Shown: positions 1-29,466 of the stretch, in pieces
How positions within the stretch are numbered: the stretch's first letter is position 1
How the letters are laid out: every line of letters begins with the position of its first letter
Assembly (NCBI GenBank): GCA_000467715.1
Contig: AJFK01000977.1
Coordinates: 1 to 64,000, forward strand
Origin: Hysterium pulicare CBS 123377
Lineage: Eukaryota > Ascomycota > Dothideomycetes > Hysteriales > Hysteriaceae
Length of the DNA: 64,000 bases
Direction of reading: 5' to 3'
Program-made: the position numbers and the translations under genes
Notes under the pieces: generated by a model
Told to the model about the DNA's origin: nothing
Databases searched by the model: none
The model's input: the letters and a program-made list of their open reading frames with translations, nothing else

Positions 1-743
1 ATTGCTTTTGATGTCGGATTTTTCTCACGGGTGGAATGTCGAGATGATGACGGGGTCATTGGAAACCGCGGATCGGAATCTAAGGGCGTCGATATATCTC
101 TGGGTAGAGACCGTCTGTTTCCAGGATCTGGAGTAGGACGGCCAATTGACGGAGAGGGGGATACGTGGATGGTATCGTGGATGATAGTTCCGCCGGGTGC
201 AAGGGTTTGATCCTGCGGTTTCTTCTGCTTTTTAGCCCGCGCGAGAGCCTTGCTGAAGACCCAAGCTCGAAGATAACTCTTCAACCTGTAACGTATTAGT
301 AAATTCCATTTCAATCCCTTGGTAACCTACACTTCAACGTCTTCCGGATAAAAAAGATCCCTAGTATAGAAAGAAGGCTTGTCAGTCTGTGCATTCAGCA
401 AGTGAGATCTATCAGGAATGTTTCGACCCCATAAATCGTTGCCGTAGGTCTGCAGAACTGCGTCAAGGGCCTCACTAAGATCCACCAGTATCCTGTTGGT
501 GGATGTTTGCGAGGCCTGCGCAAGGCGGGAAAATTGAGGATGATCAATCGGCAGCCGATGTGCCATGTCTCCAATTTCTTCATACAAAGAGGTGGCCGCC
601 AGATTCCGGAATGTGAGCGGGCCGTTCGGACTGGACGTTTTCAAGCCAAGGCCTTCGATCAAGTCTCGAGCTCTTCCATTGCCCTTGTAGTGTTGCTGCA
701 GCAAACTTTCGCGTTTGGCAGACTCCTCACTGGGTTCTTTCAT
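1..743 (-). CDS. Orphan family member OF1, 3' end outside window
   Basis: Unrecognised protein, the first of six related genes here. Exon 1 is 743-331 and exon 2 runs from 285 past base 1. The 45-nt intron has donor GTAGGT, a CTAAT branch point and an ACAG acceptor. Residues 1-138 carry the family N-module: LIEGLGL near residue 30, LQTYGNDLW, PDRSHLL and the terminal DLFYPEDVE. After the intron comes the family helix (LKSYLRAWVF), then a Lys-rich and Ser/Pro-rich linker that continues off the window, so the C-module cannot be seen. The ATG at 743 is the first in-frame ATG; upstream the frame has only non-ATG codons. Function unknown. The lack of a signal peptide and the basic linker suggest an intracellular, possibly nuclear, protein (inference). 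Confidence 0.72.
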
Positions 744-2094
744 AACAAGAGGACGAAGAAGTACTGACTCAATGACTCTGACAGGAAACAGCAGCAAGTT
801 TGGAGACCCTATCCGGATATACCGAATGAGGAAGCGTCTTGATGCTGACGGTCTAGAGTGAGCGACCCGAAACTGGCAGAACGCGGAGCTCAGGCGTGAC
901 TTACCTTGTAGCACGGACGCCGCTAAACAAAATGTCAACAGAGATTGAATGTCAGAGAAGACAGCACGAACTGAGGTCACTGCAGACGAAATGATAGAGT
1001 AGGAAGAGAGTGGAGGAAGTTCTTTTGATTTTAGAAAGCTTCTGGTGACTCTCTGGGTAGAAGGACGAGAGGTGTGGGAGAAGCAAAAGGGTCGAACAAG
1101 GGTCAGAACGCCACTAGTGGACCGTCAATTTCGACTAGTCATGATGTGTGCCTTCGTATGCGAGAAGCCGACATTGATGCACGAGCTCAAACTGGCGGCA
1201 GAAAGTGGTGCAAGTGGTGCAAACGGGGCGATGTGATTGTTGCTGAAGGGACGAAGAGAAGAGGTCGGGCCTGAGGGGAAGATGGCAGGTCAAGCGAGCA
1301 CTAGCGCGGGTGTGCGTCGTACCGGGGCTGCGGCAAGTCTCAATCCTTCCAGCCAGCTACTTCGATGCACCGCGATAACTTCAGACATGCAGGTGATGGG
1401 TCCCAGTCTGCAATCTGCCATCATCCCCTTAGTGGCGCTTTTTGACTTGCTTTGTTGGTTTTCTTGGCCAAGCATGTAAAACAAATAGTTTGTGGAACAT
1501 TGCAATCTTGTCAGCCGATACTTGTGACACCCAAACCTTGCAACTCCAGCTCCAAGAGATCTGCACAAAGGACTCAGATATCTGCTCTTTCTGAGCCCCC
1601 TTTATTTTTTCCGATTCGTCCTGCTCCAACACGGGCCCAGACTGGATGCAAGCCCCCGCTGAGGGACGCTGCCCAGTCTGCCCTGGATCTATCACATTTT
1701 ACACACAAACGCCTTCCCTATAATCCAACGGGCGAGATGCATTTCGTGGCGTTTGGTCGCCGTCCAGAGTGGAGATCTCGCGGCAGTCTTCCCTATTGGA
1801 TTGGATAGCTTGATTCACAAGTTTCTGGACAGTGTGTATTTTTCCAATGATTTCATACCTAGGATTGCACTTAGGTAAGGTACTTACTGTAATGTTAGAT
1901 ACACGCTTAGTAAGCCCGAATTCAGATCATCTTTCATGCGAATTAAGCTACACTATATAACTTGATATTTCGCATATAAGTACATGAATTTATGATGGTG
2001 TGAAGCAAGTCATTGGTATTAGAGACTTCAAATCAATTGTATACCGAACCCCGAATAGCCTCGCACAACCCAATCTAGCCTCCCAGACTCCTTG
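744..2094. other. Gene-free interval OF1 / AT-hook gene
   Basis: About 1.35 kb. It is the upstream region of OF1 and the downstream region of the AT-hook gene. Only short uninformative reading frames are present; I recognise no conserved protein or RNA. An AT-rich stretch around 1840-2000 holds several TTAGGTAAGG/TACTTA-like words. Confidence 0.6.
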
Positions 2095-3533
2095 TCATGG
2101 CATTGGCAGAAGCTGGATCTCAAGACCTCCTCTGGGTGTTTGTCTCATCAATTCTTGCGCAATTTTTCCAACAAGTCGCTCGAAAGCAGCATCGTTACCC
2201 GATTTCAGGCAGACGGCTTTTTTGGTGCCATCAGAGAGTTGGTACGAGGCCCTCCAAGCCGTACTCGGCCCATGGTACTGCTTTGCAGCTAGAGCATCTT
2301 CGATGAGCAAATTGAAAAGGACGTCTACAGAAGAATTGAAATCCTTGAGAGAGTGCACATATTCCACGGTCTCACCATCCTCATCGACCGACCATACGAA
2401 ATGAACCCTCTTGGCCTGTTCCTCAGTCAATTCTTCTGCGGCTTCCGCATAGTGTGACGGGGTGGAAGGAGCAGTGTTGAAAGTCGCCATGGTCGATGGT
2501 GTATTTGATGCCTTCTGACGTTTGGCTGCGGATTCAGTACCATTTGAAAGGCCGATCTCCGTTGGCCTATTGGCGCTATTTTGTGCGGGTGCCTCTGTTG
2601 AATTCATAGCAGGAGTTATCGGTGGTGGGCCCATCGCAGTGGTTTCCGTAGCTGTGCTACTAGAGAGCCGGGGGCGTCCTCGACGTCGTTTCTTGGGAAC
2701 AAGCTGCTCTGCGGTGTGCAGCGGAGAGACGTCGAAATCGTCGCCTGAGGCACGGTGCATTGCTCGAGTTTGACGGCGTTCGGAGCCGTCGTTCGGGCTT
2801 TCTTGTTCAGCATTCTCGCTCAGTCGCTGCCGTTTAGCTTTTGTGTTCGATGCGGCCCCTTGCAAAACCTCATTTTGGGTTTGTGGCTCATTCTCGGATT
2901 CGGGTACGCCAATTGGTGTTTCCGGGTCTCGTTGTTCGATGGATCCGGATTCTATCAGCGCTTCCCGTATCGTATCAAGCGTATTGTTGGTGTTACTGGC
3001 GTTTCTAGGTGTAAGAATGATAAAGGTATTCTTGTAGGCTTCCTTGGGTCCGTTTAGTTCCCACGGGCGGTGACTGGCGAGCTTTGAACGGTTGAGGCTC
3101 TCAGGAATTAAAATACAAAAAGCTTGACCAGGCTCGCCCTGAAGTGGAAGTATGGTGATTTTCTAAACAATAATTAATTCGTCTTCGGTTAGGGCTTTCT
3201 TGGACAAGTGCTCACTCTCTTTGTACCGAACCGCAATTCTTGTAGAGTGAGAAGCCGGATCTCACCCGTCTGCTCGCAGCAAGCTCGACATGCACCATAT
3301 CGTTCTTCACCAGGTACACCTTGGATCGATTCTGGGTACGGCGAGTCAAAATGCTTGAGGTTGCGTAGCAATTGGTTGAACGACGGCAAACCCTTATAGC
3401 TTGTGTCGCGTTCTTCTGGAGATAGATATCCAACCCAGACACCTGCTGCATGGAGTCGTTTCGCAGCCCTCCAATGCGGACTCTTGCCTTTCCGATCACC
3501 AAAGCATTCACACGTGGCAGATTGGGGAGCCAT
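2095..3533 (-). CDS. AT-hook protein with Cys-rich N-terminus, uncharacterised
   Basis: Two exons, 3533-3216 and 3162-2095, joined by a 53-nt phase-0 intron (donor GTGAGC, acceptor GTTTAG); 461 residues. The ATG lies in a good context (CCACCATGG). Residues 1-106 contain two Cys clusters (CECFG and CRACCE). The middle is disordered and basic, with an AT-hook (KKRRRGRPRL, core near residues 267-271), which in known proteins binds the minor groove of AT-rich DNA. The last 100 or so residues form a folded-looking domain (VEYVHS, AWRASYQLSDG, AAFERLVGKI) that resembles the C-terminus of the neighbouring gene OF2. A nuclear, DNA-associated role is inferred from the AT-hook only. It is transcribed divergently from OF2. 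Confidence 0.7.
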
Positions 3534-4791
3534 GGTGGGGTATAGTGAACTTGGTTGATGATCAGTGACGAGAAGCACCAGTTAGAACTATCCAGTCAAA
3601 AACATTTCGTTAGCTTTGCTTCAATTTAGTAGAATAACCACGGTGATAAAATGAGATTCATGGTCATGTTTGTTCAACCAAAAATTGAGTACCGCTTTTA
3701 TGCTGGCAAAGTTTCAATGAGAAAGGAGAAAACCCACCAAATGCATCTGAGATGCCCTGACAGAGATTGTATCAGATTAGGTTAATAGGCGCTGAGGCCA
3801 GCTGCTGTGAAATTTGCGCGCAGGGTCCACAGGTCAAGGGATACGGCGCAGCAAGCAAAGTCGATCGATGAAGTGAGGCAAACAAGACCTAGTGGCGGAT
3901 CGGAGAGGTGGACATCCCCATGAGAGAACTGTAAAGAGTTAGTGCTACATTACGCGGTAATATTAGACGAACTGCTGACCTCTCGTGTTGAAGGGCGGAG
4001 GATATAGCAGTGGAGGTGCGAGGGTGGTTGATTGACCGTTGTGTCGCTAAGGTGAGACCCAGCCGTGCCAGCCTCGCGAGATTTGCAGAGTGGCTGGGAG
4101 AGATGCCACCAACAATCAGTGATGGAGAATGGAGCCCAAAGGCTGCATTTATCAGTTTTTGGTGGATAGTCGTCAACAATAGCCAGCGTCCACAGATAAA
4201 TGGAACGGTGGTGTGCTGACGGTTGATGGCAGTAAGTGGACAAGCAGCCAGTGGTTAGGGCAGAGCCGGCGTGAAATTTAATGGGGCCGGGCTAATCGTG
4301 CTGATGCCTGTCCTGCCTCGCATCGTTGCAACCCTATTGTTCGTCTTATTCACCTATTATCTTTACTCGTCACAATAGCATGCAATACATTGCGCTCGAA
4401 GCCCTAGCAATAGACCTATTGTATTAGGGCAATCTGCCTAGTTTCTGATGCCCTCTACTCTTGTTTCGTCCCTGCGCAGTCCTCATCAATACACTTGCCT
4501 CGAACCTCATTGTTTTCTCACTGAACGATCAATTCTCATCTGGGTCCTTCTCCTTTGCGCTGCAGCCGCACTCCCCTGCATTTCTTCTTGACTCCGAAAT
4601 CTAACGACTTGAATCAGCAAACGCTGGTTCTTACCGACCTTCTCCACCTAGACCACTTCAATCTTGTTGGCTACTTTGCTATATGCTACATCAAATTTGG
4701 GTTGAGGTTTACTGCATTGCCCTTGTTTACCCTCCACGACACTTTTATCAGATTACTTCTTTTCCTGTTTCCTACACTCAAATCAGCAATC
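3534..4791. promoter_or_regulatory. Shared 5' region between AT-hook gene and OF2
   Basis: This 1.26 kb interval separates two divergent genes whose products share a C-terminal domain, so it must contain both promoters. No clear TATA box or operator was singled out. The stretch 4440-4790 before OF2 is pyrimidine-rich on the plus strand, as is common just upstream of fungal start codons. Confidence 0.4.
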
Positions 4792-5929
4792 ATGCCTCAT
4801 CGCGGCCCCATTGATTTTGTTGAAGCTCTGGGTCTTGCAACATTCGGCCCAGAGCGCGAGGATCCCCGCTATGTACTCAGGAAACCAAAGTTCAATTTCC
4901 AGCCAGTCATTGATCTCTACAAGAAAGAAATCCCGGCTCTATTTGCTACTCTCGAACTTGACAATGGGAAGAAACACAGACGCAGCGATCCAGACTTATT
5001 TGACAAGGAGCTTGACACGCTTCTTGAAGAATTCGGCCCAGAGATTTGGCCCGACGACGGCGATCGCTCGCATCTCAGGGAGCCAGATCCGGAGAGCAGG
5101 TATCCTGCAGATCTCTATTATCCAGATGATAAAGAGATGTGAGACTCTTTCATCCGACAGACGTCTCATCCAACCACATCGCTAATAAAGCCGCAGAATC
5201 AAGACCCATCTTCGCCAACTTATTCTTCACAAGAAAGCTAGGGCAGGCGTAAACCTGCACACGCTTCTCGAGAAAAAAGGCGAGAGCCATCCTCTCAGCA
5301 AAGATGTCAAGTCCAAGAAGACAATATCTCGTAATACGGACGGACGACTGAAGCCGATCACAAAGTTTCGACGTTCTCGACCTCGGAAACGAAACCTCAG
5401 CGATTTCCTTGATGAGGATGATACCCCCGACGTTGGCAGCGACAGCGATAGTGCCAGCAACAGTTCCAGCGACACTGCTCCCGAAAACTCACCCACCAGA
5501 CAACGGGGCTCAAAACGTCGGCGCATCTCCAACGGCAAAGCCAAGGCCCAGGCGAATGATCGCGCCAATGGCACAATCGGCACCCGTTTTGAAAAGACGC
5601 GACTCCGTCTATTTGACAACACCTCACGATCCCCACGGAAAGCCCACTCTCGGAAAACCACTAGCGAACAAGGGATCGTCTTAACTCACTGCCCGACCGT
5701 CGATGCTTTCTTCGCGAAAGTCTGCGAGCAAATTCAATCGGATGCTAGCTGGATCAACATCTATCTTCCAGAGGACATGAGTCCAGAGGCGAACATCTAT
5801 ATCGAGCGAGGCGCTCAGGGCTCGCGGGTTAAGTTCCAGCAACTTGTTGATGTCATTAACGCTTCGCCGAGCTTTCCCGACTCCGCTGGGCGTATCTTAG
5901 AAGCAAAGGTCGGGCTTGACCTCATCTGA
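4792..5929 (+). CDS. Orphan family member OF2 with a swapped C-terminal domain
   Basis: Exons 4792-5138 and 5197-5929 (donor GTGAGA, branch CTAAT, acceptor CCGCAG; phase 2); 359 residues. Residues 1-116 are the family N-module: FVEALGL, LLEEFGPEIW, DRSHL and DLYYPDDKE at the splice. Exon 2 opens with the family helix (IIKTHLRQLIL). The linker is basic and Ser/Asp-rich, with an NLS-like GSKRRRIS. The last 90 or so residues (VLTHC, FFAKVCEQIQSDASW, KFQQLVDVI) do not match the YNxxLxxW module of its paralogues but resemble the C-terminus of the divergent AT-hook gene, including the SW/AW and F-x-x-LV-x-x-I positions. The similarity is weak and was judged by eye. Function unknown. Confidence 0.75.
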
Positions 5930-7227
5930 ATCATCCACGTTGTACGCAACATCACTGCCATCGGAACGAGTTATCTTAGGGTTGGCTTTGTGCTCGCACG
6001 ACTGTGCTGGCTCGCCGCATTTGTGTAATGCCATACAGCATCCTCTCCCAAATTTCTATCTCCTCTTATCTCGATACATCTTGTTTGGCGGGCCTCATAC
6101 GCACAACGCCACAACCGCTATTTTGTCCAAACAGTCGTGCGATTTGGGTTCTAGGCATGCAAGCAGAAGGCCTCTCACTAATACCAGGATTTTGTCTTCT
6201 TCTCTTACAACGTTTGTTGAGTGAGGATCTGTGCAAATTGCACAAAATTTTACATCTCTGTCATTGTCCGCTTTTGGGGTTAAAGCTTATGGTGTCGGGG
6301 TTCGAAGCAGGGGGCGGTAGCACTGAATTCCGATATCGAATGCGTCATGTATTTTAAACCTGATCGGATAGTGAGAATATTTACTTGAACACTCAACGAG
6401 TTAGACCATCTGCGCTCCGAGCATGCATGTCCCAAGAACCAAGATGTTACCAACAATTCCGCTAAACATACCCGATAATTCTTCAGAACACCTACGACAA
6501 TGATACCCAAAGTTACTCCACCCCTCCACGACTCCGTTAATTTTATACTTTAGAACATCCTACTAGTTCTGCCCAATCCGGTATCCAATTCCCCAACGGC
6601 CTCTCCTAAGCCACAAAACGTACGCACAACTGTCGAACTGGGTTTTGTCGGAGCGACTTGGCCTCCTCTTAACAGTACAATAGAAGAAGAATCCAGAATG
6701 TACTCTAGCACAAGTTATTGATATACACACTGTTCACTGACTACTTCTTCAAGCTGTCGGCACGGTGAATCAGTGAACAAACAGCTGCCTTCCTCGACTA
6801 AATAGCAAGCTAGATGATAGCAAACTGTGAGACCCAAGCTAATCTGCCCTTCTAAGTAGAGGTCAGGGTAGCCAACTCCATAGGAATGTACATAGAATAG
6901 TTGAGTCCTTCGATACGGCCGTCTAGGTAGGCGGTAGAATTGAGTGTATGTTTTTCTAGCACAAGTTGGGCATGACATGCCATTACTGCGCCAGGCTTGG
7001 CCGAGGGTGTGGAGGGCTGTGCCTGAAGCCACAATTTGTGGACCGTGCAGAGCACCAACAGAGGCGCAATAAAAGGGCGGAGGACGATTGACTCATGAGC
7101 AGCAGATCAGAAAGTCTTCCATGGATATATAAAACGCCAATAATAATGTAGCAGATAGAATTTCCCTCAGACAAGAAACCGCAAACAAAAACTTCATGCC
7201 TACGCCAATTTACCTCACATTTCAACA
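5930..7227. other. Gene-free interval OF2 / DUF4291
   Basis: About 1.3 kb of moderately AT-rich DNA with only short, non-conserved reading frames on both strands. The last 110 bases contain the likely core promoter of the DUF4291 gene. Nothing else is recognised. Confidence 0.55.
7125..7135 (+). promoter_or_regulatory. TATA-like box before DUF4291 gene
   Basis: GATATATAAAA lies about 95 bases upstream of the ATG at 7228, a typical fungal distance. Assigned by sequence and position only. Confidence 0.4.
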
Positions 7228-11856: not shown

Positions 11857-13353
11857 GCGTTTATTATGCTATGTATTTGTTCGAAATATTTTAACATCTT
11901 ATGAAGGGTATGGGCGTCTTTGTTCGGCTATGGTAGGGTGTTTATGGGCATGGGGAAATTTTTGCAACTGGGTTGGTTTCAGCGTTGTATATCTTAGTAT
12001 TAACATTGCATATGAACACTCTGCCTTCTGAGTTTGAACTGTCTGCTGTATATTTGGGATGCCAAAGTTTAAGGTTGAGCCCTTGTCGCACGTGATTCAT
12101 TATAAGATTTAAGGAACCACCGCTCCTCTGAGTCTGTCATTATTTGGGGTGGTGTTGTGATAAAATTAAATGGTGTTGTGACAAAATAAGTAGTATTGTG
12201 ACACAAAAAAAGTGGTAGATAATCTCTCCTTCAGAGGCACGCATATACAACCAAATCTGTATCGTCTTGTAAAGAAAGAACAGGTTGACTAAACTTGTAA
12301 TTCTGGTATTAAGAAACCTGCAGTTCTAAAATTGGTACACGCTGTGAGCAAATGATATTCCTAAAGTACCGCAGTTTATCTCCGGTACTCTAACGCACAG
12401 CTGCTCGATCTGAACACAATTACCCGTGCGTGCGCCGTCATGGACGAAGATGAGGCTAACTGCAGTTACTATTAGATTGCTTGCCATGTTTCCCGTAGAA
12501 TAAGAGCACGGCTCGGCCCATTGAAAGCTAATCCGCATACGGCTTGACAAACGGGCCCCTAACCGCCATCCATCCCGCGCCCGTCCAACTACTCTTTTGC
12601 ATCGCCAACACATATCGAAAAATTGACAGCTCAGGAAGCTCATTTTCGATCGATCCACCCAGCCGGGCAGAGGCATGCATGCACGGCAAGGTCGTACGTC
12701 TTCTTGATAGTTGGCAATCGCAACGGCGGCAACCCATGCACCACACGCTGGTCTGCTCTCTGTAGAGTTAGTTGAGGCTTGCATCCTGCATCCATCCCGT
12801 TTCCCCGCAATAATTGTGCATTCGCGGGCCTAGGTGCGTGTCCGTAGTCTAGGTTGGCGGTCTCCTTTGCCAGATCGGCCCGGGCTTTCTCCCGTCTCAC
12901 TGTGACTTACCGCAGCGAGCGCAGCCATGGATCGATGCTCACAGCGATTCCTCGGAAGGGTCTTTTTGGCTCATCGGCTACCGCCCTTTGGCCTGCAGAC
13001 GAAGAGGAGTGTCAGTTGATCTCAGATCAACGTAATTGTCCTGAGCAAAGCATTCGTCCAGTCAAGTAAATTCCTAAGCTTGCGAAGGCAATGGGGCAGT
13101 ATAGCTCTTTCTAAGTATCTAGGTAGTTAAGGCAGAAAAACGTGAAATGCGAATTGTTCAATGCGTCCTTAGATTTAATGTTGCTGGGCTTCTTGAGGTT
13201 AAGCGTGCCGCCGGAGGGGTTCAACTTAACTCCGTCAGCCCCAACCCCTTCGAATACCCACTTCCCGAGAACGTCGCAACGGTCATCCTCAATATCTGTT
13301 CTGATATATCGAGAATTGTGCATCTTCGGTTCCTCTTGTGTCTGAAATACATC
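11857..13353. other. Gene-free interval DUF3433 / OF3
   Basis: About 1.5 kb. It contains a short imperfect tandem repeat at 12151-12212 and no recognisable gene. Reading frames on either strand around 12330-12900 lack conserved motifs. A TATCTAGGTAG word near 13116 resembles the CCTAGGTA element seen elsewhere. Confidence 0.5.
12151..12212. repeat. Short imperfect tandem repeat, about 21-nt period
   Basis: Three degenerate copies beginning at 12151, 12172 and 12192. Each carries (GG)TGTTGTGA or GTATTGTGAC followed by an A-rich half (AAAATTAAAT, CAAAATAAGT, ACAAAAAAAG). It lies about 300 bases after the DUF3433 stop. Confidence 0.6.
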
Positions 13354-14905
13354 ATGGACTATCGTGAGCGAATAGATTCCCTACGGAACGGCCTTGGTGG
13401 TGGGAGGGGAGACAGGATTCGTAACTCGGTAGAAGGGCTAGGTCTTGTCGCACCTGGAAAGGAGGGTGCGCCAATCACGTTCAAAAAAGTTGAGGTGCAA
13501 CAGTTGAATGAACGGGTCCATCAGTTGGCCAAATGTTTACTCGACGAGGATCGCCCATTTGCAATCCATCAACATGACTCAACGCTGCTTGATAAAGAAC
13601 TGGAAGATCTCCTAAGAGATCTGGGAAATGCAATTTGGACACGTAATATTCAGGAGCGCTCTCATCTTCTTCAAGCCGGCGAATCTTCTCACTACCCAAA
13701 AGACTTGTATTACCCCGAGGACAAAGCTGAGTCCGTACTGAAAATCTGTTGCACAGGCTGTCTCACTAATTCCTACATAGATTGAAAGACTGGCTGCGTC
13801 TCTTTGTTCTTCAGAGGTCACGGAATCTTCTCAAGAAGAGCAAAAGTTCTATGTCTAAAACACCAAAAACCCCTTCCAACGCCACCTTGATCAAATCAAC
13901 TATAAGCACCGGTCTATCTAGCTCTCACAAAACTCTATCAGCGTCATCATCAAGCCGAGTCTTACAGCGAAAGGTTATTCCGACCGCCAAAGGAGAGCAG
14001 CTAAACTTAAGGAGGCCTTGGAGTCCGGGCGTGGAGCCCAATGATGATGAAGACGAAGGCGATGTTCCTGAAGACGACGGGAAAGAAGGGACTAAAAAGC
14101 GCAGAATTTCTATCGACTTGACTAGCACGGTCTCCGAGGATTCCAGGGAGCCTACATGGCAGAGTAACCCGTCAAGTCAGGAGGCTCCGTTTGACCTTGA
14201 AGCGATGATGGACGATGTCATTGTTGGTGACAACCAAATAAATGGTGTAGGGGTGTCGACTCCAGTCAGCCAAAGTCCTCGTCCTCTTATCCAAGAAGGT
14301 CAGCTAGCCAATGCCCTCTTTCCGCCATGCTAAACTAAGACTTCACAGACAACAGGCTCAATCCTCCCGAAAATGAAGACGAGCTGAGTTCATTAAGGGA
14401 TGATGTGCGCATGAATCTATATATGTTGATTGACAGGGCCTCGCCCTTTTATAAAGCCAACGGCAAAGCCGACCTCCACGAAATCTGGGAGCTAGAAGTC
14501 GAATTAGACGCATTGCTTCTTAGATTACTCCAGCGACACTCGAGCGGTACTGCTACGCCTGCGCACCAGAAATGGAAAGTTCGTAGAATGGCCGTGCTTG
14601 CTTGGATCAATCTGCGACGTACCGTTCGGAAGGTAGAACAACAGGTCGAAGTTCATGTCGGCCAAGGTCCTCCGACCAGAGAGGCGAAAGCGCAAGCCCT
14701 TCATGGGACGAGCCGTAAAGATCGAAGCCAGCTTGACGGCGATCTCATACTAGCGCGGCAGGCGTGGCGGAAAGGGGTCGACGGGGAATCTTACGGCGAC
14801 CTCCTCGCGAAAGCTCTCAGAGATCTTACCAATTCCTCCGTAGAATGGGGAGAAGAATTGTCGTCATACAATGCAGTCCTACTGTCTTGGAATCTAGAGG
14901 TGTGA
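13354..14905 (+). CDS. Orphan family member OF3
   Basis: Exons 13354-13730, 13781-14298 and 14349-14905; 483 residues. The first intron is phase 2 with an unusual donor (GTCCGT) but a good CTAAT branch and CATAG acceptor; the second is phase 1 (GTCAGC, acceptor TTCACAG). Residues 1-126 are the N-module: SVEGLGL, LLRDLGNAIW, QERSHLL and DLYYPEDKAE. Exon 2 opens with LKDWLRLFVL, then a disordered linker with KKRRISIDLTS followed by acidic residues, which reads as an NLS beside a SUMO-interacting-motif-like IDLT. Exon 3 is the helical C-module (roughly residues 299-483), ending SYNAVLLSW. Function unknown. Confidence 0.75.
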
Positions 14906-16351
14906 ATAGCTGCTTGCTGGAGGTCTGCTGACCCCATGATCAAGATGCTTCGATCGATAGCGGGTTTACTTTTGGTGTCCGAGTTTCGGCTCAATCCGCC
15001 TGTATGGGGAGCGATTAATACCTTTGTATTGGCCAATTGTCTATCTCAATACATGACTTGCATTTTGGAGTACAAAAACTGAATGGATGATGGTCATCTT
15101 CCGCTTCAGCCTAAGGGAGACCTCGATTGGATGGGCCAGGTTTCAACTTCGACCAATCACAATGAAGATCGGACGCCCAATTTGCCAAGACCGTGAAGCC
15201 GCCATTTGACCTCATGGCGCTTTTAATCGAGCAGGAAAAAAACGACGTCTCATATCCAACATGCAAAAAGCCAAACTGGAGCACTCCGTCGCCACATTCT
15301 TTTTTTGCCCGCCTGACCTCACATAAGCCAGGGTAGATTATGCATGGTCCTTGTGACGAGACCAAGGTTTTCACTTGGTAGCGTAAAATAGCACAACAGC
15401 ACCTCGCCGTCTCATTATGCAAATTGAACGGCGACATACATTGAAATTCTGGACACCGCCAGATGAAGCCTGCCAACAGCGGCTGACACCACCGATGGCT
15501 CCGCTATTCACATAATCGGAAGGCTACAGTTTTTCCTAGCTCATCATGTACATCGAGCATCCAGATTCTACGAAGGATCGAAACACAAGGAATAACGCAA
15601 TGTATCCCCGGGACAGGTATGAAGAAACGAGCTCCTGAGGGTCTTCGGGACCGTGCCGGGGATGTTTTTCATAGATTTTCCCACGTTCTGAGCCAAGACT
15701 CTTGTTAACGGGTATTGCGTTACCATGCTTTGGCTTGGAGCAAAACTGGCTCGCTCCTTCTGTCGTACAGACTACTCTATTGTCGACGGCTCGGGTTCTC
15801 GACACGTCGCGCAACATAATTATAGCTTCCCATAGGCCATGTCGTCCCACAAACGACTCTCAAACGGTTGGGACATGTGGATGCTCCAGCCAGGTTCCTA
15901 CCCCTGTCTGTGTCTTCTGGGCTCGTGGGTTTTGAGCATGTCGTATCGATGTCGTTTGGGTACATGCATATGATTATCCTTTCTTTGAAAGCGAGATGGA
16001 AAGGATGTTCGACTTTAGTTACGGAAAAGGCTCTCTCCGTGGTGCTCATGGCTCTAAATCTAATTCTGCTGGTTGATTTTAATGTCACTTTCCGCCCGGC
16101 AGCGAACAGAAATGTTGCCCCGTACTTTTTTCGGCTTGCAGATCGCCTAGTTATTGGCTGATTTCGTTTCCAAGCTAGCCTGGTTGAAAGTATGTCTTGG
16201 ACATCTGGTTATCTGATCCCAAAGCAAACGAGAACATTCTTAGTTCGTTTCAGTTTCATTTGTCTTTTTTACGTTCCTATCCACCCATCCGTACTATGCT
16301 ACTTGTCGCCTTTTTCAATGCGCGATCAACTTAAAGAGAAAGGACGGGCAG
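14906..16351. other. Gene-free interval OF3 / OF4
   Basis: About 1.45 kb. Short reading frames on both strands show no conserved motif. No repeat or RNA gene was recognised. Confidence 0.5.
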
Positions 16352-16520
16352 CGAGTTGATTCGGTGTCTCGGACTAGACAAGCTCAATCGTAAGTTTTCT
16401 CCGAAGTTTGGCAGAACGGAAACTACTTCTGATTTCCTACGAAGTTGGGGTGCTGGTTGAGCTAACTATGAGAGTGCAGACGGGTCTCATTTACTCTCTC
16501 GTCTACCGAAGAAAGACTTC
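16352..16520 (+). pseudogene. Remnant of an OF-family N-module (5' part of OF4)
   Basis: The frame at 16352-16389 reads ELIRCLGLDKLN, matching the LGL start of the family N-module. It is followed by a well-formed intron (donor GTAAGT at 16390, GCTAAC branch, GTGCAG acceptor ending 16479). The next piece reads GSHLLSRLPKKDFY, matching the RSHLL...PKDLYYP end of the module. The central 70 or so residues, including the GxxxW segment, are missing. No in-frame ATG exists between the upstream TAA and the LGL motif. It is either decayed or extensively re-spliced; decay seems more likely. Confidence 0.5.
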
Positions 16521-16760
16521 TACGTGACAGGTGCTTCTTCTTCCTCAGCTGCAGACACTCGTAGGTTGCCGAGATACACCGACATAAAAGCTTACTAATC
16601 AAATCATAGTCCGACCGAACGCCTCTAAGACAGCGTAAACCACTTTCCAACAAGCATCAAGGGCAAACATCAGTCATCCTGGCCCGTTTTGGGGTGGATT
16701 GAGAATTCAAAGACAACATATGCGTTACTTCGGCCAAATCACCTCTGCCTGCCCGAGAAA

Positions 16761-17522
16761 ATGACCTCACCAATGACTCGCGGGCGCCCAGACTCAGGGA
16801 CTTCTCCAAAAAGACCACGCGAATCCGCACGAGGCGGCGACGAATGGCGGACTGTGGAACCTATCCCGCTTCCCAAAAGACCCAGAAACTGTAATTTCCC
16901 CAATATGTCTTCCGACGCATCAACGGCTTTGACCGTCGTCAATGGAAGCGAACTTACCTACGATTCGAGAGTGGGCAACGCACAAGGGCCCCAATGGTCC
17001 GCGACGGAGATTAAGAAGATGAGAACAGAAGTGTGGACACTTCTGCTTGAATCGATCTTCAATCCGCCTTCGAGCGATTTACCTATGCCAGGAAAAGGCT
17101 TCGAAGCCGAATGCAGACTCGACAAAATTTTGGGGATCCTGGCAGCATCTTCTCATGACGAAACACATTCGTCAGATTCAGTAAAGAGGGACGGCGGCTT
17201 AAGCAATGCTAAGCACCGGATTCTGACCGATTGGATATCGATCCGGTGCTCGGTGAGGAGTTTCAGAGAGAAATTTCCATCGCCATTGGAGCCTAAACAG
17301 ATCAACAGTATCGCTCAGAAATTGGATCCTAGAGATCAATGCAAGATAGCGGTTTCATGGATGAAGCTGCGAGAGAACGAGTTCCCAGCCTGGAGCAATT
17401 TCGAGGAGGAGCTGGCGGACATCATCATGGTAATCACGAGATTTCAGTTGGGATTTGGTCGAGGCCTTTTGCTGGATGGCTTCAAGAAATACAACCTGTC
17501 CCTGCGTCGTTGGTTCGGATGA
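16761..17522 (+). CDS. OF4 C-module reading frame
   Basis: Uninterrupted frame of 253 residues from the first in-frame ATG (MTSPM). The frame is open further upstream to about 16629 and may join an earlier exon. Residues 1-60 are a basic, Pro-rich linker (SPKRPRESARGG and LPKRPRNC are NLS-like). Residues 75-253 match the helical C-module of OF3, OF5 and OF6: an opening helix (MRTEVWTLLLESI), a central KHRILTDWISIR with a Trp shared by the paralogues, and the ending KKYNLSLRRWF. The N-module just upstream is badly shortened. The gene may therefore be a pseudogene that keeps one long frame, or a truncated paralogue. Expression is unknown. Confidence 0.6.
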   Translation: MTSPMTRGRPDSGTSPKRPRESARGGDEWRTVEPIPLPKRPRNCNFPNMSSDASTALTVVNGSELTYDSRVGNAQGPQWSATEIKKMRTEVWTLLLESIFNPPSSDLPMPGKGFEAECRLDKILGILAASSHDETHSSDSVKRDGGLSNAKHRILTDWISIRCSVRSFREKFPSPLEPKQINSIAQKLDPRDQCKIAVSWMKLRENEFPAWSNFEEELADIIMVITRFQLGFGRGLLLDGFKKYNLSLRRWFG

Positions 17523-19117: not shown

Positions 19118-20302
19118 ATGGACGGATCAATCGTCGACTATCAAGACCGCGGCCAATGGCACCATAGATATAAATGGGGCCGAGGCTTCAGACTCAATGA
19201 CATAGTCAGACTTCTCGGCTTAAAAAGAGCTGGCCGGGGAAATCTACCCAGGTTTGATTATTATCCGGTTAAACAGCTATACAGAGTGATCGGGAACTTG
19301 CGAGTAAATTTGCCCATCCAGCTGGACGCTTTGCTTGATGCCGCAACGAATTTAGAGACCCTCAATAGAGATCTGGAAAAATTGCTTGAAAAGTATGGAA
19401 GTGCCATATGGAGTCATGACTCCGCAAGACCTCATTTACTCGTCGGCGGTAGTCCTCTGTATCCTAAGGACTTATATTATCCAGAGGACAAGGCTATGTG
19501 AGAAGTGACAGCATCACATTTCGGAGAAATCTCACTGACTTTACGTAAAGAATACTACAGCATCTTCACTGTTGGGCATTCGGCATGGCTTTGAAACATC
19601 GCAGTAACCATCCTCACATCTGGCGGTCTAAAACATCCCTCAAGGAAAGTGTTAAATTCAGTCCCACGGAAGAAACAATCCCCGATCAAGAAAGTCCTTC
19701 CCCGTCATATTCCGCTTTGTCTACCTGCGATCTGGACGGTCAACAAAGTCCTTCTACTGGGACAACTCCTACTCCAGGTCCTCAAGAACTAGCGGGAACA
19801 TCGGAGGGACCAAGCTCGATTGAGGTGCTGAAATCTAAGGCGGAGGGAGCACTTCGACTCCTGAGTGCAAACTCAACAGCCCTGTTGGACACCGGCAGGG
19901 CCGAAATGCCGACTGCTTCCTCTCGGCGCCTTCAAAGCAACTTTCTTAGTAATGGCAGTTCTTACAGCGATGACGAGGACCAAATGAACCCCATAAGCTT
20001 GCATGGTCGAGCCAACTACGATGGCCAGATTATGGAAACGGAGGAAGGGTTGATGCAAACTCCGAGCTTGAGCCGGGAAGGGTCTCCTTCCAGGAACGGA
20101 CATTCAACGCGCGATTCGGCCGACTCTGCAGGTAAGTTCAAGTTGTCTTACCTTGCTCGTCAAGCGTACTGATAATATCACAGGAGAAAAGGCCGAGTCC
20201 CTGGAGTCGCCAGGACACAATTACCATTCATCAGGACAAAGAGCTACCAGTCCGATTCTCATATCAGAGGACTCATCATCATCGGACGACGAGGTTGATG
20301 AC

Positions 20303-20337
<35 letters not shown>

Positions 20338-21022
20338 GTATATCGATAGTAACAGCAACTACGATGAACATGGCGACAACAGTATCGAACACAATATCCA
20401 AGAAGGCCAAGGGTCTTCTCATTCGGAGAAACAGGCCATTTTGAGCAATGAATCACTCATCGAAGAGAGAAGGGAAAAAGCTCACCGAATACTTCTAGAG
20501 CTACTCGATCAAAGAGGAAAGACTGACCCTAACTTAGACGACGTGCCCGGTCAAAGTAAAACAAGGAAGATCCTCGAGCGGACGCTCGATTTCTTACTTG
20601 CAAACATCTGGAGATATGATAAGGAAGAGAATAATCAGCATATGGGTGATTTCTTTCAGTGTAAGGAGGAGGCTCTAGACGTATGGCTGGTTACGCGGAA
20701 TCAAATTCGGGGACTCAGAGAGCGTTTTAATTTGCTACCCGACCGGCATCAATCACTGGTGGAATACAGCAGGGCCGCGGCATTCTCAGAGGAAGAAAGA
20801 TCTGAACTTCTTTCTAAGCAAGAAAATCTGTTGGGTCAAGAAGCACGCTTGGAGAAATTGGAAAGAATCCTCAACGAGAATTTTGGTATGACATTTGAAG
20901 GAGTTCTGGCTCAAGTCTTTGATGGGTTGACGAAGCGTAGGGTTGGGGCGCAGAGTTTCCTTCCAGGCCTGGTAGTTTACAATACCCAACTTCGGCGTTG
21001 GCTTCGGTTTGCGAAGGACTGA
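19118..21022 (+). CDS. Orphan family member OF5 with poly-Asp tract
   Basis: Exons 19118-19497, 19551-20131 and 20184-21022; 599 residues. Introns: phase 2 (GTGAGA to GTAAAG) and phase 1 (GTAAGT to TCACAG), the same positions as in OF3. The acceptor at 19550 rather than 19560 is chosen because it alone continues the frame and restores the family helix (IILQHLHCWAF). The N-module contains DIVRLLGLKR, LLEKYGSAIW, RPHLL and DLYYPEDKA. The long linker holds PILISEDSSSSDDE, a SUMO-interacting-motif-like core with acidic tail, followed by 13 Asp in a row encoded by a GAT microsatellite. The C-module (last 190 or so residues) ends VYNTQLRRWLR. Function unknown. Confidence 0.75.
20296..20338 (+). repeat. 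GAT trinucleotide microsatellite inside OF5
   Basis: About 14 GAT/GAC units in the coding frame of OF5 encode an uninterrupted poly-Asp run. It is flanked by Ser/Asp codons, so the tract extends an already acidic region. Length polymorphism between strains would be expected. Confidence 0.9.
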
Positions 21023-22262: not shown

Positions 22263-22755
22263 ATTTGCAAATGTCGATATTACTGTCAGCTGAAATTCAA
22301 CAATAATTTTGGACTTGGAAGGATAACTTATTTGATGGTAGAGCTTACGATATGTACCTCGGCTTGCATAAGCACTAGCTAAAGTAACTCCGTTAACTTT
22401 GGGCAAACACCTTACCCTACAGCAAAGCGAAAACACCACGAACAGCCATCCATCCATGCCACAAGGACTCGATCAGCCGGTATTTGCCGTAGCGCAAACG
22501 TTGAGACACAGGCTCACAGCAGACCACCTTTTTATTACACAGCTAAGTCCTGCCATCACACAGTGAAGCCCGAACTCGGTTTGCACACGCCTCTTCGGGA
22601 TTGTACCATTATAGCTCCAGGGCCAAACAAGCTAAGTTCTACCTACCGTCATGTTGCTCAAGCAAAATGGTTCGCTCTTAGCAAGTAGGACTGTAACAGC
22701 CAACCTTAGGCCTGCAAGCGGAGTTTGAATGAGGACAACAAAGGCTATATTACTC
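22263..22755. other. Gene-free interval methyltransferase / transcription factor
   Basis: About 490 bases. It contains the promoter of the methyltransferase (minus strand) and the 3' region of the transcription factor gene. No specific sites recognised. Confidence 0.5.
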
Positions 22756-24511
22756 TCATAAGACACTCTGCATCTTCATAGCTTCATTCCATAGATCTCG
22801 GCCGGACTTGTCCTGTATTTTTCCGGTCCAGGCAAAACTCTCCAGGAGCAATTTAGCCTCACACCAATTCGACAATAACAGCTGCGAGACCGCTTGAGCG
22901 ATAGAACAGACAACCCATAACTTTTCGGTTGGATCGATGACAAGAGGGCCCGCAAGAAAATTAAGCCACATACGCAGTGCGCGCATAGACTCAGTCGCGA
23001 AGCTCTCCTCTTCAAGACAAGACTTCAGCTGCCATATCAGTTGTTTACCTATCGGCAAAACCCAAAACTCATTCTGGATGATACCGACGTAGAGCAAGAT
23101 GCCTAGATGACAGGCTTTGATAAGATGGTCTCCTAATCCGCGGATGGCATCCTGATTCTCTCTGGAGAGAAGAGAGTACTGAACTGACCGTATTCTCTCG
23201 CGCAATCTCAAGGGAATGACCTCCGACTTTGGATAGTTGACTGCGTTTAGATCCTGAGCCACGGTATGTACTTTGTAAAGAATGTCGCAAAGCTCCGAGT
23301 CAAATCCATAATTATCATGGACAGCTTGAAACCCGGGAGCAATGTTTCTCTCTGTTTCGTCGCAACCTCGAAGTACACCTGCCTGTGCCTTTCTTTTCTC
23401 CGTTTGCAGGTATGGCTTCGAAAGGCCATAGACGGAGCCCCAGATATCCACTCTGATATTGCCTTAGGAACGATGACAGATCAGCCATGGTGCAATCTAA
23501 CTTACCGATGAAGCGTATCACGCAAGATTGGATTACACTCAAAGGCCAACAACCCTCCTCGTATCTCTACCATCCGCTTTATGCCCCTCATATGAGTGCG
23601 CCAGTTTGCGTGGTTACCGCTTGACTGCTGCGAAAGCAAGTCAGTGTGTCAGGTATCAAATTGTGGAAGTACCTACTTCAGTTAGGGCTAGAAGAGCCAC
23701 AGCAGCGATAGTTGAATCACTTATTTCCTGTAAAGGGTCCGCAAGCCGTTCATTGAGAATCCGGATTGTCTGTTTCAAGTGGTAGACTGCGGAGGGACGC
23801 TCTCTCTTGCTATTCTTTACTGTCTCAAACTGATCGCTACAGAAGAGAACTGAGTTAAGCAAGGCGGGGTCGGTAAAAGCCAGAGGCACCCAGAGCTTTT
23901 TGGTTGGATTGAATCCCCAATATGCTTCGATTTGGTACGCGTGATCTGCCACAGCAGAAACGACTATTATAATGGCGTCAGCAAATTCCTATACAAGGAT
24001 ATCATATGATGTTTATGACTAACGATCCAACAAAGGAAGCAGTGGACTTACACAGGTGAAGAAGGTCGTGCATATACGGTTGCATTTTTATCGGGAAACT
24101 ATCGAAGGGGTCCTCGCTCCAGCGTTCAGGTGATAGAATAGGTGGACGTTCAAGTTCAACGACTGTTTCTGCATCGTTGTCTTGACTCTCAATTTCTATG
24201 TTTTGGAGTCCAGGCTTTGCGTACGCAGCTATCCGTTGCTGTCGTCGATAACTGCGCATAACGTGAGTCCGGACGAACTTTCGAGTCTTCGGGTTATTTG
24301 GACGCCGCCCATCCGAGCAATCGACGAACTCAAAGCACTCCTTCGAAGGTCTTTCTACTTCTTTTATCGGGAACCTCAATAAGTACTCATATTCTTTTAC
24401 TGTTATACAACGCATCAATATCTTGAGTTCAGCTAAAACAGCACGAAATCTAGACCCCTGTTCTGAGCGCCAAGAAGCGCTATGGTCAAACAAAATGGGA
24501 TATTCTACCAT
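22756..24511 (-). CDS. Fungal-specific transcription factor without visible zinc cluster
   Basis: Exons 24511-24052, 23963-23677, 23627-23506 and 23452-22756; 521 residues with this start. Donors GTAAGT, GTAGGT, GTAAGT; acceptors ATAATAG, TTCGCAG and ATATCAG; all phases agree. The N-terminal motif FVDCSDGRRPNNPKTRKFVRTHVMRSYRRQQR (in part, residues 62-92) is typical of a fungal regulator family that lacks a Zn2Cys6 domain. The rest is the fungal transcription-factor middle region, with a characteristic WRTHMRGIKRMVEIRGG segment encoded by exon 3. The start is uncertain: this family often begins just before the FVxx motif, so the ATG at 24417 or an unseen upstream exon is possible. It is divergent from the neighbouring dehydrogenase and may regulate it (inference). 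Confidence 0.78.
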
Positions 24512-25332
24512 GCTTCTGCTAATAACAGAAATGGCTGAACGGACACAACTCACTTTTCCTCGGTCTTCCTCTTCGAATCGATTTTGGCCACTGGACTTTG
24601 GCGTCTTTTGATGAGCAAAAGATCAATCCCCCGTCTTTGCTCTTTGGCCCCGATTTACTGTCGAAGACTAAGAATGTCGGAGATAACGTCGTCATTAAGG
24701 GCTTCGCGACTAATACGTGGCTGATGTAAAGTGCGGGTGTGGTGGAAAGAAGTCCAAAATGAACAATGGTGGTTGCAAAAAGAGGACCAACCGAGCAAGG
24801 TGCGAATGATATTATATATTTCGCTACAGGCTGCGGAGCATAAGCTTATTTCTTACGTCCGCAGGATGTGCTAACCCGTTAGATGGTAGTGCATCACTCC
24901 ACCAATCAGCCACCCAGTCACCGCAGGCTTCCTTCGCCTATTTATCCAAGTCCAGTCGAATTTTCTGAACCGTTGGCCCTTTTGGTGCGCCAGCTCCACA
25001 AACCCCCGGCGCTAACGTAAGCGGTTCCTCCGGGGCCCTCCGCGAACATCAACATCGCAATAGTCTCAAGCATTCGGTCCTCTCATATCGCATCTCCTCA
25101 TATTCCTACAGGATGAAGGAGGACTGATGCCCGCTAAAGGAGGGTTAGACAGCATCCAGAGACTACTAGCCAATCAAAGAGATACTTTAGGTTTGCAGTC
25201 ATCTGCGTTCTTGACTACTTAAACCCATGATACCTCCGCAAAGTCTCATCAGCTTCTCGAGACTCAAGCTCTTTACACCTCACATCTACCACCTCTGCTC
25301 TAAAAAGACGTCATATAGCCAAGGCCCCCGAA
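24512..25332. promoter_or_regulatory. Bidirectional region between transcription factor and dehydrogenase
   Basis: About 820 bases between divergent start codons. It includes an AT-rich patch with ATATTATATATTTCGC near 24810, a GC-rich patch near 25000-25050, and a C/T-rich leader before the dehydrogenase ATG. Any operator is unidentified. Confidence 0.4.
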
Positions 25333-26382
25333 ATGGTCGATCTAGCAACCCTTCCAAAAGACTGGGTTGTCACCTCAAATCAATTCACCAGGGAGGTCCA
25401 CACCGACATATATCCTGCCATCGACCCATCTAAACCAGAGAACTCGCTCAAAGGCAAGACGGTAGTTGTGACGGGCGCCAGCCGCGGCATCGGGGCTAGG
25501 GGCATTGCACCGGCTTTCGCAAAGGCGGGCGTCAAGGCTATGGTGCTAATTGCTACCAATGCTGGTAAGCTGGCAAGTGTTGAGAAGGAGCTGAAGAAGA
25601 TTAACCCAGAGCTCGAGACGCTTGCCTTGGGTGCGGATATCTCGTCTTCCGAACAAGTCACTAAGGCATGGTCTGAGATCAACGCTAGGTATCCCAAGGT
25701 CCACGTGCTGGTTAACAATGCTGGCGTGGAGTGTACCCAGAGTGATAAGGCGATGCACGAGCAGGATCCGGACATCTTTTTCAAGAATTTTGTAGGTGAC
25801 CTCTGGCAGCCTTCTTTCAGTGTGCAAATGATCAATTCTCCAAGTAAGAATTCGGCAGTGCGAATAATGCAGCTGATATCCATCCTCCCCGTCTAGGAAA
25901 TCAACGTCAAAGGTACCCACATTATAACACAGCACTTCCTTCAGGCCGCGCTTCCTTGGGCCTCAACCACCGACAAAGCCAGGATTATCACATTGACCAG
26001 TCAGACCGCCTGGGGCGTCTGGCCATTCTTAGCCGCCTACGCCATGTCTAAATTGGCCAACATCCAATATACCACTACTCTTGCCGCCGCCTATCCGGAC
26101 ACGCTGGTCGCTATCTCGGTCAATCCTGGGTTGAACGACACAGAGATACTCCCGCAGGTCCTTAGGGAGGCTGGATTCAATTACAACAACCCAGCGCTCA
26201 CTGGTAGTATCATTGTGTGGCTGGCGGCGGACCCAGCGAGAAGCCAATTTTTGAATGGGAGGGCGCTTTCGGTTGAGTGGGATGTCGAGGAGCTGGTCGC
26301 GAGGAAAGAGGAGATTACGAGTCAGAATCTACTGACGATTCAACTGCAGGCATTGCTGGGAGCGGAGCAGTTTGTAGACTGA
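25333..26382 (+). CDS. Short-chain dehydrogenase/reductase (SDR)
   Basis: Exons 25333-25791 and 25897-26382; 313 or 314 residues depending on how the stop is counted. The 105-nt phase-0 intron runs from GTAGGT to GTCTAG, and the join restores the conserved sequence before N-x-K-G-T-H. The Rossmann motif TGASRGIG is at residues 47-54, NNAG follows in the middle, and the catalytic set is Ser188, Tyr201 and Lys205 (YAMSK). This is a classical NAD(P)-dependent oxidoreductase, probably cytosolic. The substrate is unknown. It is transcribed away from a transcription factor and close to a methyltransferase, which suggests a small metabolic group. The ATG at 25333 is preceded by a purine in the -3 position. 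Confidence 0.87.
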
Positions 26383-27913
26383 GACCGGCTTCGATGGGCG
26401 GAGCGTAAGGGTCTACCTGAAAAGATAGACCATTATAGATACGGATGATTGTTAAGATACTCCACTTTACACGTTTTACCTATATCAGAAGAAACAAAAG
26501 ACCTTTTAGACCACTCAAATTCTGAGCTTCATAACTTAAATAACTAGGAAGAGATCGATGTTAATTCACCAGCTCTACTTAGTTATAAATTTTAAAGCAA
26601 GACCCTATCTATACCATGTCTAAACAAAGATATTTTACCTTGACTGCAACCCGCGGTAGTCTTGGAATGATTGAACTGCTAGTTTGAAGTTTAGGCGTCG
26701 AGATATGTCAACTTCACTCCCACTCCTGTGCAGGTTGTCAAAGTAAGTGGTGCGAGCAGGAATATTTGAACCATATTCTTTGTTTCGCGAAGTTGAAAGT
26801 CTATACTTTACTTAGCTTCTACGCGATGGGAACGTCTCAACCGTGCGAGGTGCAGTATGCAATCTGTAAAACACTGATCCGAGCTATGATCATGATGCGA
26901 GTACAGCATCCGTCAATACGGAATCTAGACTTATCGTCGAACAGAGAAGTCTCGTAATCAAAACGAACACATGACAAGGCGTAGAGCTGGTTCGGTCAGA
27001 GTGACTGGGCCATTAGCAAGACACTTTTATTCCGGAGCCTTGGCCACGATTCACGTATTCACAACGAGTGGTCCTTGTTCGCTACGGCGACCATGCCAAA
27101 CTGCTGTCTGGGATGAACCACGACCCATCTAACGTATGGCTTGGGGCGTTGTTAGATTTAGGCAGAACAGACTCCAAAATGTGACCTTGGGAGTGCAAAC
27201 GCCACTCGTGTTCCATTCAATCGTAGAAACTGTAGCAGAACTGATGCCTAGATGGTCTGCATTGGCTTCGATGCGCAATTCCGTTTGGTTTTCTTCCACT
27301 TCTCACATGCAACGAGCCTCTGCGCTGAAACAAGGCGCTTTGCCAAGTCACCACTCGCCGGGGTCATCGGTTACGTGCATAAGTCTTGATCTTCCAATCT
27401 TAGAAACCTAAACATCCACGCGTTGTATAGCAAAAGCCCTGTCTAGTCCAGGCCGGAAATGTGCGAACTCCGTCTTTCGTAACAACCTCAGCTTGCCTGG
27501 CATTCTCCTTGGGAATGATCCCACAGTACCACATATTCAATAGCCATACACGCATACTTCTTACTCTTTGCCCAACATCTCTCTTACGAGAGTTGTTCGA
27601 CGCGTGGAAATCCGATCTCCCAACTCACCCTACTACAATATCTCGCCCTCCCCAAACAAGAGGAGGACGATCCTTCCGGAAATCTCTTCAGACAGGATAT
27701 GTCATAATTCAGGGCAGTAACCATTTGCATAGACACTTGCATAATCATCTTTGCTCTTCTGTGTTCGTCTTCTTTGATCATGTCTGAGTTAATATCTAGC
27801 TAATGGTCTGCCAGAAACCGAATCCGAAAACAAGGTGCTAGCGCTTTAGCTAAGACCCAATTCACCCCACATTTCACCTCGTACCTCCTCTTTTTCGCAG
27901 AAGGACCCAAATC
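26383..27913. other. Gene-free interval dehydrogenase / OF6
   Basis: About 1.53 kb. The first 300 bases are AT-rich. Short frames near 27136-27411 and 27461-27787 have no recognisable motif. A C/T-rich leader precedes the OF6 ATG. Confidence 0.5.
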
Positions 27914-29466
27914 ATGTCCCTATCACCAAACTACGTATTACCTGACCATCGAGACGGACGAGGGAATAGTAAGGATACTATCAAGTATCTCGGACTCCTA
28001 ACGAAAACCCAAGGAGGTGGCATAGCCTTCGTGCATCAGGCAGCCAATAGCTTATACAAGGATGTGATGACTTTGGCTAGCTCATTGGGCAACACTCCCG
28101 AGGAGATACAATTGAAAGCTAGAAATTTGACCCCAGTCAACTATAGGATACATGAGCTTCTAGAAAAGTACGGTGTACACCTTTGGCCTCGAAGGGGACA
28201 AATCAGAAACCATCTATTCGATCCCACTGCAGCTGGAGGAAGCAACCTTTATCGGAAGCATTTGTACTATCCGGACGACAGAGCTGAGTGAGTAACAGTT
28301 CACCTTCCGGAGCAAGAGTACAGTGCATACATGCTAATTTTTGAAGGTTAAACTCGTTCTTGCAAGGCCTCGTTTTTGTGGTTGCCTACGAGCAGACCAA
28401 ACAGACCGTATCGCAGCTCCCAATCAGCACAGGTGCTGCAAGACCCCTATCGGGTTCCCAAGTCGAAGTCTCATCGAACAAGAGTTTAACACCTTCTTCC
28501 TATAACGCTCGCTATAAGGTCAATAGAAATGGCAATAGTGATCCGTGGACAGTTTCTTCACAGACCTTAAATCTTCCCAAGCCATCATCATCTCAAAAAC
28601 TTCCTGATCTCAAGAACAAGGATACAAAGCGTAAAGCGGAGAGTCCGAGAGTTGCTGGAGGTAGGCATGAAGACGAAACGGGATGTAAGAAGCCAAAGCT
28701 ACAAGACAATGAAGTTGTTAGCGCAAACAACAATATTGGGACAAAGTCGACACTTGGAAGCGGTCAAAATCGGTCACAGTCATTGCCTGATCAAGCCGAG
28801 ATTATATCTATTACATCAAGCATGTCCTCTAGCTCTGCTGAAGATGACGACATCGTTGTCAGCCAATCGTCCCCTCGATATGACCCGCAAGAGCAGGAAA
28901 GCTTGAATACAGATGCTCGAGATGCCCAGCACTACTTCATGAGTACGAGGTTGAAAGCGTATCAGTGCTTAATCGGATTATTGGAGGACGTCGGCCCCAT
29001 AAATGACCCCAGTATTATTTGGGACATTTGGGATACATACTCGAAATCGAAGCAAGCTGGAAACCCCGCTTCAAACAACTCTACCGTCAAGGAAATGGAC
29101 GACGACTTGAAAACGTGGCTCCATATGGCACAAGCTATGAAACAGTTCAAGGCCACAATCAAATTGCCGAACTACGAGCACAAAGACCTGGGCCGACATA
29201 TCCGAAAATGGGGAGCAAAAGACATACTCTTTCTGCATTACAACTTGGCGGAATTGAAACTACTTTACCCAACGGAAAAGCTGCACCAGAGATCCTTCCT
29301 GATCAAACGCCACAATTCTTCTGCCCCGAACTCGTTACTTGAAGCACTAATGTGCATTCTTGACGTCGGCTTTCCAGGCACTGAAAGAGCACTGAGGGAA
29401 CGCCTCCAAAGTTACAACGCGGAACTGCTCCCATGGTTTGAACCACATCTTCGATTTACCTTCTAG
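27914..29466 (+). CDS. Orphan family member OF6, single intron
   Basis: Exons 27914-28287 and 28347-29466; 497 residues. The phase-2 intron (GTGAGT to TTGAAG) sits at the family position, directly after HLYYPDDRAE. The N-module has TIKYLGLLTK, LLEKYGVHLW and RNHLF. Exon 2 opens with LNSFLQGLVFVV. The linker is Ser/Asn-rich, with two basic clusters (TKRKAESPR and CKKPKLQD) and an EIISITSS core followed by SSSSAEDDD, again SUMO-interacting-motif-like. The helical C-module (about the last 180 residues) ends SYNAELLPW, then FEPHLRFTF. Unlike OF3 and OF5 there is no second intron between linker and C-module; the frame is continuous. Function unknown. Confidence 0.77.

Follow-up and report, generated by a model that had tools for sequence, protein, structure and literature searches.

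An old, uncatalogued family of paralogous genes in the fungus Hysterium pulicare

Fungal gene families without known domains are common and numerous. In duplicated fungal multigene families, the paralogues can have a common intron and unrelated flanks, and one copy may be decaying. The OF genes of Hysterium pulicare CBS 123377, described here from the first 64,000 nucleotides of contig AJFK01000977.1 (the window), are alike in their apparently common intron, their unrelated flanks and the possible decay of one member, but no named family matches this one, and Pfam and PDB were negative for both of the modules from which its proteins are built. Lineage-specific genes of Neurospora are reported to lie near telomeres, to be clustered with HET-domain genes, and to encode proteins with few or no recognisable domains (PMC10684091); the OF genes resemble them as clustered fungal genes whose proteins likewise have few or no recognisable domains. 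According to another study, homology-detection failure is enough to account for many of the lineage-specific genes found in fungi (PMC7660931). The family formed by the OF genes is real and old and has so far escaped cataloguing; most of its copies are intact, and such a family is not unusual for a fungus. Because families of this kind are common and homology-detection failure can account for many lineage-specific genes, the family by itself changes little; to the large class of domain-less fungal genes it would contribute one uncatalogued domain and a family whose gene anatomy is clear.

A preliminary description of this DNA had proposed a six-member family of paralogues that share an N-module with characteristic motifs and have no known domain. 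When all six frames were scanned, the described motifs were found together at five sites, and an N-module of about 115-137 residues is common to OF1, OF2, OF3, OF5 and OF6. The alignment of these modules has 19 invariant columns, and identity to OF3 is 30-41%. Profiles built from the other four modules recover each member that was left out, with E values (E) of 8e-31 for OF1, 1.8e-20 for OF2, 1.1e-32 for OF3, 8.4e-29 for OF5, and 1.2e-25 for OF6, and in all five of these tests the true N-module outscores all 999 shuffles. The paralogues had been thought hard to see pair by pair; on the contrary, BLASTP detects all ten N-module pairs, with E from 5.6e-9 to 5.8e-18 (these come from one-to-one comparisons, and a database search would give larger values). 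The five-gene N-module family is certainly real, with the shared module and motifs as first proposed. A profile of the five N-modules run against the whole 64 kb found no sixth intact copy.

The absence of a known domain was also borne out: neither module has a family in Pfam or PDB, and the N-module has none in NCBIfam or PHROGs. Against Pfam-A, the six gene models (OF1 partial), the five N-modules and the four C-modules (see below) gave a best E of 0.049 (DUF7623, 14.2 bits vs a cut-off of 27). With the five N-modules nothing significant was found in NCBIfam (best E 0.036; 13.6 bits vs a cut-off of 290) or in PHROGs (best E 0.17), and profiles of the two modules against PDB sequences reached best E of 0.094 and 0.62. 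Searches with one peptide pattern, a weak test for a fungal host, gave 15 matches in viral contigs and 27 in prokaryotic genomes, none of which was confirmed; these negatives say nothing about distribution among fungi. No such family is named in the titles and abstract beginnings of the papers listed by a literature search. A paper on LAS1L that matched the motif letters was ruled out, as its main text has 0 occurrences of the motif.

The gene models, with the ATG nearest the module taken as the start codon, are as follows.

OF1: 1..743, minus strand; the start of the window cuts the gene; exon 1 743-331 (N-module, 743-333), intron 330-286, exon 2 285-1 (open)
OF2: 4792..5929, plus strand; exon 1 4792-5138 (N-module, 4792-5136), intron 5139-5196, exon 2 5197-5929
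OF3: 13354..14905, plus strand; exons 13354-13730 (N-module, 13354-13728), 13781-14298, and 14349-14905 (C-module)
Possible decayed N-module ahead of OF4: 16320..16530 (limits approximate), plus strand; an ELIRCLGL piece and a GSHLL...KKDFY piece
OF4: 16761..17522, plus strand; a single open frame of 253 residues, C-module only; BLASTP with OF5, E 3.8e-4
OF5: 19118..21022, plus strand; exons 19118-19497 (N-module, 19118-19495), 19551-20131, and 20184-21022 (acidic linker, C-module)
OF6: 27914..29466, plus strand; exon 1 27914-28287 (N-module, 27914-28285), intron 28288-28346, exon 2 28347-29466 (linker, C-module)

In four of the five N-module genes the frame stops three codons past YYP(E/D)D (the OF3 frame stays open), and because the frame closes so soon after it, this motif had looked terminal. 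In the models (L/F)(Y/F)YP(E/D)D instead ends exon 1, not the protein. In each of the five genes a first intron of 45-59 nucleotides can be modelled that splits the third codon past the motif, always in phase 2 and at one and the same place in the alignment; it has GT...AG ends in all five, and a CTRAY branch-point motif starts 13-16 nucleotides before its end. The spliced frames remain open and enter a similar helix (LKxxLRxxV and variants). Splice sites were picked by hand, the choice being steered by the open frame and the similarity of the next helix. A shared intron is strongly indicated. Second introns are placed within the linkers of OF3 (14299-14348) and OF5 (20132-20183); that of OF3 has no CTRAY branch point and is less sure. 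The full-length layout thus modelled runs from an N-module through a helix into a linker of low complexity, and OF3, OF5 and OF6 continue into a C-module. OF3 has an in-frame alternative ATG at 13147, 69 codons upstream, and no such alternative is present in the other five genes. The corrected models, with an intron after YYP(E/D)D and a C-module, are what annotators need to find relatives.

A separate observation concerns unspliced RNA. Intron 1 of OF1, OF2, OF5 and OF6 begins with GTGA or GTAG, which in phase 2 produces an immediate stop. Such RNA would be predicted to yield the N-module on its own, as a protein of about 115-140 residues. OF3 does not have this feature.

An intron position common to five diverged copies argues for duplication at the DNA level. 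Retrocopies would have lost their introns, and the same hand-placed phase-2 intron is found in all five N-module genes. The age of the copies is suggested by their third codon positions, which differ at 0.60-0.79 of sites (102-124 codons per pair; random sequence gives 0.75), and by their surroundings: when flanks of 800 nucleotides each, six upstream and five downstream, were compared by blastn (plus strand, E 0.01), there were 0 matches. The five-N-module tree does not resolve (both inner branches 90/89, under the program's mark), and every end branch is longer than 1 change per column. The copies look like old DNA-level duplications rather than retrocopies or a recent burst. The ratio of nonsynonymous to synonymous differences (pN/pS) in the N-module, 0.48-0.66, is a rough sign of constraint only, given the near-saturated third positions. 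The preliminary description had called the family fast-evolving, which is half right at best: the linkers and C-modules have drifted, but the N-module looks constrained.

These data also bear on whether the genes derive from a transposon or virus and were domesticated as gag-like pieces, with helical ends, a basic stretch and a disordered middle. Dispersed copies, one of them possibly decayed, would fit such an origin, as would the failure to find a cellular family. However, a spliceosomal intron common to all five genes would not, and the copies have neither terminal repeats nor common flanks: no inverted repeats of at least 18 nucleotides are present in 1-30000, and the six models contain no mobility domain, with no match to a polymerase, integrase, transposase or zinc knuckle. 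With no relative in viral contigs by the single peptide pattern, a transposon or viral origin is judged distinctly improbable.

The second module links OF3, OF5 and OF6 with OF4, which is taken to be the sixth member (the preliminary description gave no coordinates for single genes). The C-terminal 184-204 residues of the four proteins align, with 8 invariant columns that include the Y, N, L, and W of YNxxLxxW, the motif in which this weakly conserved module ends. Similarity is weak and varies from pair to pair. For OF4-OF5, BLASTP gives E 3.8e-4 and none of 500 shuffles is as good, and for the other whole modules shuffles were as good in 9/500 (OF3-OF6), 19/500 (OF3-OF4), and 26/500 (OF4-OF6). 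When only the last 45 residues are compared, the shuffles as good per 1000 are 0 for OF3-OF6, 0 for OF4-OF5, 8 for OF4-OF6, 15 for OF3-OF5, 28 for OF5-OF6, and 116 for OF3-OF4 (six comparisons, uncorrected). In leave-one-out tests against 999 shuffles, the C-modules of OF5, OF4 and OF6 rank first. OF1 is cut off ahead of any C-module, and OF2, which has a different C-terminal stretch, is absent among the C-module profile hits up to E 50. A C-terminal domain common to OF2 and the gene at 2095-2760 (minus strand) seemed likely by eye and was ruled out, 349 of 1000 shuffles being as good.

Upstream of OF4, start-like and end-like pieces of an N-module lie with the middle missing and no single frame through both. 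Apart from the frames of the family itself, nothing matches the profile better than the ELIRCLGL piece, yet its E is only 2.3 and its score 5.1 bits, and an unrelated hit follows at 4.8; the GSHLL...KKDFY piece on its own scores -0.7. In a test confined to this site, which was picked after it had been seen, 1 of 400 control windows equalled its score. It is suggestive that OF4 is a member with a decayed N-module. Between the two pieces, at 16390-16479 (plus strand), an intron-like span can be read by eye (GTAAGT ... GCTAAC ... GTGCAG), and given this span the OF4 N-module may be shortened rather than dead. Of the six members first claimed, then, five have the N-module; OF4 has no intact one and is joined by its C-module and the possible upstream relic. 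Five of the six do lie on the plus strand, as had been pointed out, but chance puts at least five of six on one strand in roughly a fifth of cases (p = 0.22).

The protein properties provide the basis for a tentative view of function. By hydropathy, none of the six proteins has a membrane or signal segment: the highest 19-residue Kyte-Doolittle mean is 1.18, and at the chosen starts it is at most 0.68 in all six (the alternative OF3 start gives a mildly hydrophobic N-terminus, mean 0.94). Judged by composition, with hand-set limits and no control, the linkers consist of 75-80% disorder-promoting residues, and basic clusters are present in those of OF2, OF3, OF4 and OF6. Over the 32 residues that follow YYP(E/D)D, the net charge is +5 to +8 in OF1, OF2, OF3 and OF5. 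Codon usage in frame 0 is 0.10-0.175 bits per codon, vs 0.12-0.17 in seven training open reading frames scored on their own table. The OF5 linker also contains, at 20285-20335 (plus strand), a GAT/GAC repeat that encodes an aspartate run.

Because of the hydropathy, the linker composition and the basic clusters, the OF proteins are, as a weak best guess, soluble and probably nuclear, with an adaptor or regulatory role. Taken together, these observations favour, at somewhat short of even confidence, an old fungal paralogue family that arose by DNA-level duplication and encodes two-ended, soluble nuclear adaptor proteins. The gene would have been duplicated with its intron carried along in each copy; the copies would then have dispersed and diverged, one of them possibly decaying. 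As read from the sequence, a full-length protein has a constrained N-module followed by a helix that is mostly basic, then a long linker made up largely of disorder-promoting residues, and at the far end a C-module that changes fast; the helical fold is a low-confidence prediction. Acting in the nucleus as an adaptor, the protein would bind one common partner, or itself, through the constant N-module and differing partners through the variable C-module, with the linker holding the two apart. A bolder form of this idea, in which an undescribed domain, the N-module, would be the basis of a family of fungal nuclear adaptors (a constant recognition end, a disordered linker, a rapidly varied effector end, and local diverging paralogues), is considered rather unlikely. 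That a plant- or animal-associated fungus secretes these proteins as effectors is far less probable still; a diversified, multi-copy family without domains is what such effectors could look like, but by hydropathy nothing at the chosen starts resembles a signal peptide, cysteines are few (0-4 per protein), and the linkers are long and look disordered.

The same basic helix could be read differently, as part of sequence-specific DNA-binding regulators in which DNA would be bound by an undescribed domain made up of the N-module and helix, and the C-module would be regulatory. The net charge of +5 to +8 that four of five members show past the intron would suit this, as would the helical model of the N-module. 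Structures were predicted with AlphaFold for the OF3 N-module (exon 1 only) and the OF5 C-module. Both models are almost all helical, a low-confidence prediction that is too weak to interpret (mean predicted local distance difference test score, pLDDT, 58.8 and 59.5). A very weak match to HTH_37 (E 0.19, one of five members) and one to a TFEB chain in PDB sequences (E 0.094) point the same way. However, neither match is significant; equally weak ones lead elsewhere, to myo-inosose dehydratase (E 0.036) and NAD+ synthase (E 0.16), each in one of five members; with 0-4 cysteines per protein there can be no zinc-finger cluster; and the OF6 helix is not basic. A DNA-binding role is considered rather unlikely.

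Several points weigh against the adaptor family as modelled. The splice sites were chosen by hand from the DNA sequence, partly for an open frame and a similar helix; the first OF3 donor, GTCCGT, is atypical, and the OF5 acceptor was preferred over an alternative to keep the frame and the helix similarity. As whole C-modules, OF5-OF6 (121/500 shuffles as good) and OF3-OF5 (167/500) match no better than chance, and OF3 comes second in its leave-one-out test, beaten by one shuffle. Composition is the basis for both the nuclear location and the adaptor role. No basic cluster was seen in the linkers of OF1 and OF5 (the OF1 helix, outside that scan, is basic), the OF6 post-intron helix has a net charge of 0, and patterns like SUMO-interacting motifs are unconvincing (shuffles per 1000: OF6 47, OF4 25, OF5 206, OF3 552; OF1 and OF2 have no pattern). 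Codon bias is weak evidence, with the reverse strand scoring about as well as frame 0 in OF2, OF3 and OF5, and frame 2 about as well in OF4. Both structure models average below 60 pLDDT, and Foldseek found no fold match in PDB (best E 2.8 and 0.36), although fold searches on such models do not count as evidence.

In the first 30 kb the OF genes are, as first noted, interleaved with others: Pfam identifies a DUF4291 gene, a DUF3433 gene, a methyltransferase, a Fungal_trans_2-type gene and a short-chain dehydrogenase. Beyond 30 kb it finds a P450, DUF7730, DUF7820, HMG-CoA synthase, an ATR-type kinase and Aim21. The short introns and the affinities of the neighbouring Pfam families fit an ascomycete. 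The suggestion of an undescribed system is unsupported, as nothing ties the OF genes to each other's action or to these neighbours. Lineage-specific genes linked to self-recognition or reproduction, like the clustered ones of Neurospora, are another possible reading, since these too are clustered genes without domains, of a class similar to that described in PMC10684091. HET genes cluster with the Neurospora genes as described there, but no HET-domain gene was found here when 24 single frames from the neighbourhood were searched against Pfam (a subset of the window's frames, unspliced, two of them overlapping), and this reading is held to be unlikely.

Two neighbours on the minus strand have features of their own. 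The gene at 2095-3533, whose last frame (2095-2760) was scanned without a Pfam match, has a cysteine-containing N-terminus, CECFGDRKGKSPHW...CRACCEQ, followed by the AT-hook-like KKRRRGRPRL. The gene at 22756-24622 is fragmented: Fungal_trans_2 is matched by one of its frames (E 8e-6), and another frame farther upstream contains FVDCSDGRRPNNPKTRKFVRTHVMRSYRRQQR, a motif known from fungal regulators.

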